DNA of 22,652 bases from a virus: IMG/VR virus record IMGVR_UViG_3300032316_000768, positions 1-22,652 of that record. One strand, given 5' to 3'. A program made the position numbers and the translations under genes. Below the pieces are notes generated by a model, which did not search any database, had not been told where the DNA came from, and was given only the letters and a program-made list of their open reading frames with translations. The first letter of the stretch is position 1. Each line of letters begins with the position of its first letter. Below, piece after piece: positions 2,891 through 8,367 of this stretch.

Positions 2891-2931
2891 TGAAAAAGAT
2901 GGTTGGTTATTCTGTTACAAGGAAACCAACC
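2891..2931 (-). terminator. Probable rho-independent terminator of the tmRNA unit
   Basis: On the minus strand GGTTGGTT pairs perfectly with AACCAACC (8 bp, 15-nt loop), followed by ATCTTTTT. This would end the tmRNA transcript just before the hydrolase ribosome site. The loop is long for a terminator and is nearly identical to that of the hairpin upstream, so it may have another or additional role. Confidence 0.55.
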
Positions 2932-2969
2932 GAAAAGGTAATTTAATTCTGTTACGAGGATAAACTACC
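2901..2969 (-). repeat. Twin hairpins with different stems but the same loop
   Basis: Minus-strand hairpin A (2969..2937) has a 9-bp stem GGTAGTTTA/TAAATTACC. Hairpin B (2931..2901) has an 8-bp stem GGTTGGTT/AACCAACC. Their 15-nt loops, TCCTCGTAACAGAAT and TCCTTGTAACAGAAT, differ at one base. The stems differ in sequence but are both paired, while the loop is kept, which is the pattern of a selected RNA motif. They lie after the tag stop codon, where other tmRNAs carry pseudoknots. Confidence 0.75.
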
Positions 2970-2990
2970 AAAAACCCTAGCGACCCTTAA

Positions 2991-3023
2991 TTAGGCCGCA
3001 ATGCGGAACTTTTCATCGTTTGC
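2991..3023 (-). other. tmRNA proteolysis-tag reading frame
   Basis: Ten codons from resume codon GCA give ANDEKFRIAA, then TAA. The AND(E) start and the AA end are the hallmarks of ssrA tags (E. coli: ANDENYALAA). With the alanine carried by the tmRNA the full tag would be AANDEKFRIAA. The terminal IAA instead of the commoner LAA or VAA should still suit ClpX recognition, which reads the last residues; that is inference. Confidence 0.9.
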
Positions 3024-3132
3024 ATTTACTTTGTTTGCGTCTTCGACCGAGTTTCCCCAATCCTAAAGGCTTCTGCTTTGCCTAGTTGTCCACTTCTGTA
3101 CTCTTGACCCAATCGATCCTGTGTCAGGCCCA

Positions 3133-3291
3133 TCATAAAGATTTTATTTTGGAAACGATATCATAAACTTTAGAGTATACTTCGGTTATATCATCTAACT
3201 GATTTTCAGTTACTGATTTATTCTGTTCTAGTTGAACTAGATCCTTGGCCAAGTTTTCTTGTAACTCTTTTAGTTTATCTGTATCATCCAC
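3133..3291 (-). CDS. Small acidic coiled-coil-like protein encoded inside the tmRNA spacer
   Basis: 52 aa from a GTG at 3291..3289 with AAGGA 6 nt upstream. The ATG-like open frame reaches further up to 3363, but that part is the tmRNA acceptor piece read as protein (QCPPGPPQG) and is not credible coding. The product is charged and helix-forming: DDTDKLKELQENLAKDL, VQLEQNKSVTENQLDDI, YSKVYDIVSKIKSL. Leucine/valine spacing suits a short coiled coil. The frame begins 13 nt after the acceptor CCA and its TGA ends one base before the mature 5' end of the coding piece, so it fills the segment removed during two-piece tmRNA maturation. Function unknown. It might be incidental, but the start signals and composition argue for a gene. 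Confidence 0.6.
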   Translation of the reverse strand: MDDTDKLKELQENLAKDLVQLEQNKSVTENQLDDITEVYSKVYDIVSKIKSL

Positions 3292-3303
3292 ATAAAATCC
3301 TTG

Positions 3304-3367
3304 TGGTGGACCTGGCGGGCACTGCCCCCGCGTCTTGAATCCGTTTCTAGTTGCTTCATACAACCAT
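3304..3367 (-). ncRNA. ssrA: Permuted tmRNA, acceptor piece
   Basis: On the minus strand GACGCGGG leads into a 5-bp T stem (GCGGG/CCCGC) with a 7-nt loop, directly followed by the 3' acceptor strand CAGGTCC and ACCA, ending at 3304. The acceptor strand pairs with the 5' end of the coding piece 172 nt downstream, so the gene is circularly permuted as in the two-piece tmRNAs of alphaproteobacteria, some betaproteobacteria and cyanobacteria. GGTTGT near the 5' end can pair with ACAACT of the coding piece. The T loop is GGCAGTG rather than the usual TTCRANY. The 5' end is placed at the predicted transcription start. Confidence 0.88.
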
Positions 3368-3374
3368 AACCTCT

Positions 3375-3403
3375 ATTATAAAGGTTCTTTATTTAGTTGT
3401 CAA
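3375..3403 (-). promoter_or_regulatory. Perfect sigma70 consensus promoter of the tmRNA locus
   Basis: TTGACA (3403..3398), 17-nt spacer, TATAAT (3380..3375) on the minus strand: all 12 consensus bases. Predicted start is near 3367, immediately before the acceptor piece. The -35 box overlaps the stop codon of the nuclease gene. Expression would need only host RNA polymerase. Confidence 0.9.
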
Positions 3404-7737: not shown

Positions 7738-8367
7738 ATGCAAAAAATTTACCAAAACAGATACGAAAAATTAGTCACACATTACAAAAATAATATGGAA
7801 TCTGGATATTGTGAGAAACATCATATTATTCCAAAATGTATGGGTGGTACCGATGAACTTGAAAATTTGGTTTTGTTGCCAGCAAAGGCACACTACATAG
7901 CACACCTTTTATTATGTAAAATTTATCCAGAAAACAAAAAAATATTACATGCCTTTGCGGCTATGTCACTAAGCAGTAAAAACCACAAAAGAAAAATGAA
8001 TTCTAATATGTATTTAAAAATGCGTATGGCTAGGTCCAATGCAATGAAAGGTGTACCTAGGCCTGAACATGTAAAAGAAAAATTAAGAGTACCTAAGAAA
8101 AACAAAGAGAATTATAAAAAACCAAAATCCGAAGAACATGCTCAGAAAATTTCATTGGCATTGATAGGTAAGAAAAAAACCAAAGAGCACATAGAAAAAA
8201 TGATTTTATCTCAACGCAAATTTCAAGAGCAAAGAACACAAGAAATGCATGATAGAATCCAGCATTTTAGAAATCTTTTCGTGCAAAGTGGTTTAAATAG
8301 GAAGGATTTCTTTAGAACCTATAATTTAAACCAAAATACCGGAAAACGTTATTTGAGAGGACTTTAA
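7738..8367 (+). CDS. HNH homing endonuclease
   Basis: 209 aa. The nuclease core is CEKHHIIPKCMGGTDELENLVLLPAKAHYIAH (residues ~25-57): HH, the central Asn and the last His form the beta-beta-alpha-metal site. It continues with NUMOD3-like repeats (MKGVPRPEHVKEKLR; PKSEEHAQKISLALIGKKKTKEHIEKM) typical of DNA contacts in homing enzymes, and a helical C-terminus (GLNRKDFFRTYNLNQNTGKRYLRG) that looks helix-turn-helix-like. It is free-standing, opposite to its neighbours, and ends 17 nt from the convergent 60-aa gene. No good ribosome site precedes the ATG at 7738. Confidence 0.92.
   Translation: MQKIYQNRYEKLVTHYKNNMESGYCEKHHIIPKCMGGTDELENLVLLPAKAHYIAHLLLCKIYPENKKILHAFAAMSLSSKNHKRKMNSNMYLKMRMARSNAMKGVPRPEHVKEKLRVPKKNKENYKKPKSEEHAQKISLALIGKKKTKEHIEKMILSQRKFQEQRTQEMHDRIQHFRNLFVQSGLNRKDFFRTYNLNQNTGKRYLRGL

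Follow-up and report, generated by a model that had tools for sequence, protein, structure and literature searches.

Can the segment that separates the two halves of a permuted tmRNA gene, and that is lost when the precursor matures, itself be a gene? The 5' ends of pre-tmRNAs are cut by RNase P, and two-piece tmRNAs are derived from a single permuted precursor (PMC3985003, PMC9004378). The tmRNA database holds 11,946 permuted forms (PMC11915505), and what has been mentioned inside the intervening sequences is a tRNA gene (tRNA-Ala) and a repeat, not protein genes (PMC11915505, PMC9004378). The question is raised by a 22.7-kb fragment of a virus record (22,652 nucleotides, hereafter the window), which carries T4-like genes for PhoH, a PDDEXK-type exonuclease, a CobS-like ATPase and a cell-wall hydrolase, and in which a preliminary description, made from the sequence alone, had pointed to a 52-codon frame with AAGGA and GTG filling the spacer of a tmRNA gene. 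We put at roughly 0.72 the probability that this frame is a real gene, that the spacer is a general cargo slot and that the transcript serves as an mRNA and then as a tmRNA, its expression and timing being inferred.

The tmRNA locus lies on the minus strand of the window, where ARAGORN predicts a permuted tmRNA with the tag ANDEKFRIAA (reading frame at 2991-3023, open and closed by a stop codon). Rfam model RF04321 matches 3365-2991 with 92.5 bits against a cut-off of 47, the acceptor piece preceding the coding piece. The putative promoter of the transcript, a sigma-70 type sequence at 3375-3403 (TTGACA-17 nt-TATAAT), agrees with the consensus at 12 of 12 positions, and this match is all that supports it. 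The acceptor piece (3304-3365 in the RF04321 alignment) comprises the T-arm, the 3' strand of the acceptor stem, CAGGTCC (3314-3308), and an encoded CCA ending at 3304. The coding piece (2937-3131, from matches to RF04321 and RF01849) opens with GGGCCTG (3131-3125), which pairs with the 3' strand at 7 of 7 positions and includes G3-U70. Between the end of the CCA and G1 at 3131 lies the spacer of 172 nt (3132-3303) that is lost on maturation. Processing into two pieces, aminoacylation and tagging are predictions from this gene anatomy only. Two similar stretches, TTTATCCTCGTAACAGAATTAAATTACC and GGTTTCCTTGTAACAGAATAACCAACC, located at the end of the coding piece and beyond it (2899-2966, minus strand), resemble a repeated tmRNA 3' end and are possibly what is left of a second tmRNA. 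GIY-YIG and HNH endonuclease-like ORFs are present at 1225-1911 and 7738-8367 of the plus strand, opposite to the genes around them. A reading of the locus as a group I intron was rejected, the Rfam search having returned no match to a group I intron core anywhere in the window.

Within the spacer, the Shine-Dalgarno (SD) sequence AAGGA (3302-3298) is followed by GTG at 3291-3289, which is spacer nucleotide 13, and by 52 codons that end in TGA at 3135-3133, with a single T between this stop and G1 (nested gene at 3133-3291; product VDDTDKLKELQENLAKDLVQLEQNKSVTENQLDDITEVYSKVYDIVSKIKSL). The frame thus stands, to the base, where the preliminary description had placed it, both in its start and in the 1-nt distance of its TGA from the coding piece. 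The proposal that the precursor is at once an mRNA and a tmRNA also agrees with this anatomy, since the gene lies wholly within the segment removed by maturation, translation from the precursor being inferred. A frame of this length starting near the CCA has a p of about 0.002 under dinucleotide shuffling of the window spacer taken in isolation. The frame is open in the 5' direction as far as a TTG at 3363, and its relatives within spacers share only the GTG/ATG start after the SD. AlphaFold predicts the 52-aa protein to be a two-helix hairpin (pLDDT 79.8), with which a fold search of the PDB returned nothing informative (best E 2.7). Comparison with Pfam and PHROG gave no convincing match beyond coiled-coil-type noise, and neither collection detected an endonuclease motif in the ORF.

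Relatives of the 52-aa gene were found only in uncultured viral contigs: tblastn recovered no homologs in named phages, none were found in 84,980 bacterial and archaeal genomes, and blastn of three spacer-ORF tmRNAs against named phages gave no match. Nearly all the sequences compared are metagenomic contigs, among which the same virus may recur. The relatives occur in four settings: 1) in the spacer of a permuted tmRNA (the window, L001-L004, L009-L012, L014-L017, L019-L021, L023, L024, L026, L027, L033 and L040); 2) directly upstream of a tmRNA with a separate spacer of its own (L005, L006, L025, L028, L048, L054, L103 and L115); 3) between decayed tmRNA halves, beside an intact tmRNA (L007 and L008); and 4) as a stand-alone gene (L047, L049-L053 and L055-L057). 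Some of the stand-alone copies follow T4-type late-promoter-like sequences, and most have, at a distance of up to about 3 kb, a tmRNA with a short slot or with a slot that something else occupies, no tmRNA having been seen in L056. In L013/L035 the ORF is fused mid-sequence to a nuclease gene, which is probably a chimeric contig or a recombination junction.

Both checks put forward in the preliminary description came out in favor of the frame: spacers of 168-172 nt in related phages contain it as well, and its dN/dS is far below 1 (about 0.08). Length differences among the relatives amount to whole codons only, except in a frameshifted copy at a contig end (L028). Codon models yield omega values of 0.07-0.09, namely 0.086 for the copies in spacers (lnL -814.2 versus -887.6 at omega = 1), 0.073 for the copies outside, where fixing omega at 1 costs 108 log-likelihood units, and 0.092 for all copies, the neutral model being rejected by 73-164 lnL units across the sets. 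In the gene tree the copies inside and outside the slot interleave, and the grouping of the outside copy of L005 with that of the window has full support; the well-supported branches alone require that the gene entered or left the slot no fewer than 2 times. The preliminary description had held that homologous loci with other spacers would refute the frame. Such tmRNAs do exist, but there the ORF is intact beside the tmRNA (L005/L006, L007/L008, L025 and L103) or another gene occupies the slot, which points to a mobile, real gene and is not evidence against coding. On these comparisons, which we consider decisive, the nested 52-codon frame is a real gene, though its expression has not been demonstrated.

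The occupants of the slot are not confined to this family. A search with the 5' part of the coding piece as pattern gave, among the matches listed, 81 distinct spacers not selected for ORFs; the frequencies are valid for this sample only, among those matches, and the search motif demands G3-U70, so that its occurrence at the surveyed loci is not independent evidence. Of the 14 spacers of at least 130 nt, 13 were filled by an ORF that began a short distance behind the CCA; when the interiors were shuffled, the mean was 0.3 and the maximum 2. Among spacers below 75 nt open frames were not in excess, and no spacer had an SD. With the further loci added by a second scan, which selected for an SD after the CCA, there are at least 67 distinct coding spacers in total, up to 482 nt in length and falling into about 29-30 sequence clusters, a count that is approximate in that it includes a few very short ORFs and one cluster linked via read-through into tmRNA sequence. 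Rfam rechecks of 14 further slot loci placed a match to RF04321 above the cut-off at the slot in 13, L073 scoring below it.

Pfam matches of slot ORFs include DUF2061 (3.5e-20, full length), CxxCxxCC (1.3e-6) and Oxidored-like (2e-10 and 3.3e-12), and the longest slot is filled by an HNH-like ORF (L261 only, just below the Pfam cut-off). Synonymous changes prevail in the slot ORF pairs L087/L133 (dN 0.144, dS 1.40) and L138/L170 (4 synonymous to 1 nonsynonymous), the pairs L049/L057 (7:6), L078/L144 and L114/L155 being less telling, and some slot ORFs of 20-30 codons are not individually significant. The slot ORF of L130, MTTIQTLKLAGYLLGAYIAYKLGLEVWCIVYGLLY, resembles by eye a stretch directly upstream of the member of the 52-aa family in L049. 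The Oxidored-like ORF of L138, L170, L206 and L265 fills a 115-nt slot that offers it no start codon; its frame in L138 and L170 can be read from an ATG within the acceptor piece and continues into the coding piece. Two small membrane-type ORFs stand in tandem within one slot in L054 (3671-3885) and in L272. Taken together, the survey identifies the spacer of the phage permuted tmRNA as a cargo slot for small phage genes, in which, as far as sequence comparison can tell, unrelated ORFs have replaced one another. When genomes were scanned for an SD immediately following a tmRNA-like CCA, one hit was returned, in Arthrobacter, which was discarded as an ordinary one-piece tmRNA with a terminator; as this pattern fits only part of the phage spacers, cellular coding spacers are not excluded.

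One such gene is present in a cultured phage. The isolate Methylophilales phage Melnitz (MZ577097), a T4-like phage, has the order PhoH, PDDEXK nuclease and permuted tmRNA seen in the window, and its 142-nt spacer (L278, 6078-6219) contains an unannotated frame that is open from an ATG behind GGAG through the end of the spacer (MFKWLSKTRLVVITRDYFRERNRKADAKIPKYLSGTRSVYD...). This frame is kept in six related contigs (L282-L287; MFKWLLNIKLVVITRDYFKERNRKADAKIPKYLSGTTSVYD...). It differs from that of the window in being another ORF, in having its SD outside the helix described below and in ending inside the coding piece. The contig L281 has nearly the same coding piece as Melnitz and a 76-nt non-coding spacer, which on comparison looks like an exchange of cargo. 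The paper on Melnitz describes the phage tmRNA and a riboswitch, and we found no mention of the spacer in it (PMC9004378). A permuted tmRNA is also present in Pelagibacter phage HTVC008M, where the spacer is short and non-coding.

The ends of the spacer are under a constraint of their own. Whether or not a spacer is coding, the i-th base following the CCA pairs with the base at -(4+i) relative to the mature 5' G; of the first 10 positions a mean of 9.26 is paired, as calculated from 86 distinct arm pairs. The mean drops to 6.36 (sd 0.14) if each arm is given a partner from another locus at random, and does not exceed 6.15 if the register is shifted; for coding spacers alone the values are 9.22 and, shuffled, 7.71 (sd 0.13). 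This covariation indicates that the spacer ends form a helix that continues the acceptor stem and is followed in most spacers by TGAT. In the window the 5' arm CAAGGATTTT (3294-3303) and the 3' arm AAAATCTTTA (3136-3145) form 9 of 10 pairs in the common register, with support from the predicted fold, and the unpaired TGAT before G1 (3132-3135), which is common to most coding and non-coding spacers, contains the stop TGA. The 5' arm reads like AAAGCATACT in non-coding spacers; in coding spacers it has TAAGGA, the SD, and the ORF closes with the 3' arm, UCUUUA, and the UGA behind it, the last codons in the window being ..K-S-L. Since UCUUUA-UGA is helix arm and codons at once, slot proteins tend to end in Ser-Leu, as do 26 of the 39 whose stop is separated from G1 by a single nucleotide. 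The SD lies within the first 10 nt of the spacer, and hence inside the arm, in 64 of 67 coding spacers. Closure of the SD is not universal, for in L027 and Melnitz it stands outside the helix, and with the Oxidored-like ORFs that lack a start in the spacer these cases indicate that the start rules vary among slot ORFs. The window spacer folds with -57.2 kcal/mol (z -4.77), its SD and GTG start being paired in a long helix. Leader and start are predicted to become less accessible as the RNA is completed: over 58 coding precursors the value is 0.52 as long as the 3' arm is missing and 0.16 for the full-length RNA, with a decrease in 57 of the 58, although such energies take no account of ribosomes, tertiary structure or proteins.

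These features can be combined into a two-stage precursor, in which the closing helix is both ribosome-binding site and end of the ORF and the burst of protein is self-ending, a model whose chances we consider even. A single transcript from the promoter before the acceptor piece would contain, in order, the acceptor piece with its CCA, the SD and ORF, and the coding piece, and the ends of the slot would pair into a helix stacked on the acceptor stem, with the SD in its 5' arm and the last codons in its 3' arm. In the nascent RNA the SD would be free, and ribosomes could load and translate the slot ORF until the 3' arm is transcribed; ribosomes on the RNA may also hold the helix open. Once the 3' arm is made and no ribosome is present, helix and acceptor stem would close and shut the SD, whereupon tRNA-processing enzymes would excise the message, by RNase P at G1 and by 3' trimming to the CCA. 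Each transcript would then begin as a short-lived mRNA and end as a tmRNA. Because a ribosome that has reached the stop codon also covers part of the acceptor stem's 5' strand, no single molecule should be able to undergo translation and tmRNA folding at the same time. Translation from the precursor, its order in time and its competition with processing are inferences made without expression data.

The strongest competitor, which we hold to be unlikely but cannot set aside, is that nothing beyond genome economy is involved: a real gene would have come by chance to lie in the spacer, the helix would serve tmRNA processing alone, its purine-rich arm having been co-opted as an SD, and there would be no switch and no link between the products. 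Non-coding spacers share the helix and its register, which makes the helix independent of cargo; the unrelated occupants make a common function with the tmRNA unnecessary; and the exceptional SDs of L027 and Melnitz suit this account too. It is opposed by the regular location of the SD in an arm that must be closed in the mature fold.

Another possibility, in our view improbable, is that the 52-aa protein acts in or on trans-translation, through SmpB, the ribosome or the tmRNA, and for this reason stays with the tmRNA. Nearly all copies found outside the slot do share the strand of a permuted tmRNA and precede it by no more than about 3 kb, often by 10-100 nt. However, these T4-like phages conserve their gene order in any case, L049-L052 and L057 have another ORF in the slot with the family member nearby, and the protein has no fold or family match.

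The position of the stop codon admits a further conjecture, to which we give little credence, namely that the excised message, once trimmed at its 3' end, loses its stop, stalls ribosomes and becomes a substrate of its own tmRNA, the product being tagged and its amount reporting tmRNA activity. A stop 1 nt from the RNase P site, found in 39 of 67 coding spacers, would indeed leave almost no 3' tail; yet in 10 of the 67 the stop is 12 nt earlier and in 18 the frame runs into the coding piece, and there are no measurements.

In L007 (around 1592-1750) and L008 (around 1321-1479) decayed tmRNA halves flank the 52-aa ORF, and an intact tmRNA with another spacer adjoins, an arrangement that we interpret from its sequence as the fossil of a slot replacement. 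The same halves could suggest that in general the tmRNA has degenerated and left the locus to the ORF. This is very hard to uphold against RF04321 scores of 62-142 bits across loci, and for the window it was rejected in view of the fully paired acceptor stem with G3-U70 and the open tag frame. That the 52-codon frame is a chance opening in a non-coding spacer, for which only its shortness could be pleaded, is ruled out by an omega of about 0.08, supported by more than 70 lnL units, and by the occurrence of the same protein outside tmRNAs.

We return to the spacer as a slot for genes, and to how it compares with known systems. The permuted tmRNA genes of alpha- and betaproteobacteria, cyanobacteria and phages share with the window the gene order, the tRNA-like domain with its encoded CCA, the tag frame and the excised segment (PMC11915505, PMC9004378). 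What sets the window apart is an intervening segment that is itself a gene, complete with SD, start and stop. Homing endonuclease genes within the group I introns of some tmRNA genes are likewise protein genes in a part of the precursor that is removed (PMC11915505); here, in contrast, there is no group I intron, the cuts would be those of tRNA processing rather than splicing, the cargo is mostly not an endonuclease, and the same nucleotides serve as RNA signals and as coding signals.

In mRNA helices that sequester an SD, the start of translation is hidden through pairing with a later segment, as is predicted here, where the helix however belongs to a tRNA-like processing structure. In the open-access literature searched we found no account of a protein gene within the spacer of a permuted tmRNA, the subscription literature not being covered, and the arrangement is thus provisionally without a published precedent that we could find.

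The intervening segments of two-piece tmRNAs have so far been treated as discarded RNA, and a class of small phage genes, including one in the cultured phage Melnitz, has thereby been missed. The arrangement would set translation against tRNA-type processing on one and the same molecule, and it offers a case of an RNA helix dictating the ends of proteins, in the Ser-Leu termini of the slot products. If the two-stage reading is true, the transcript would be open to ribosomes only while it is being made, and would then fold into a tmRNA.
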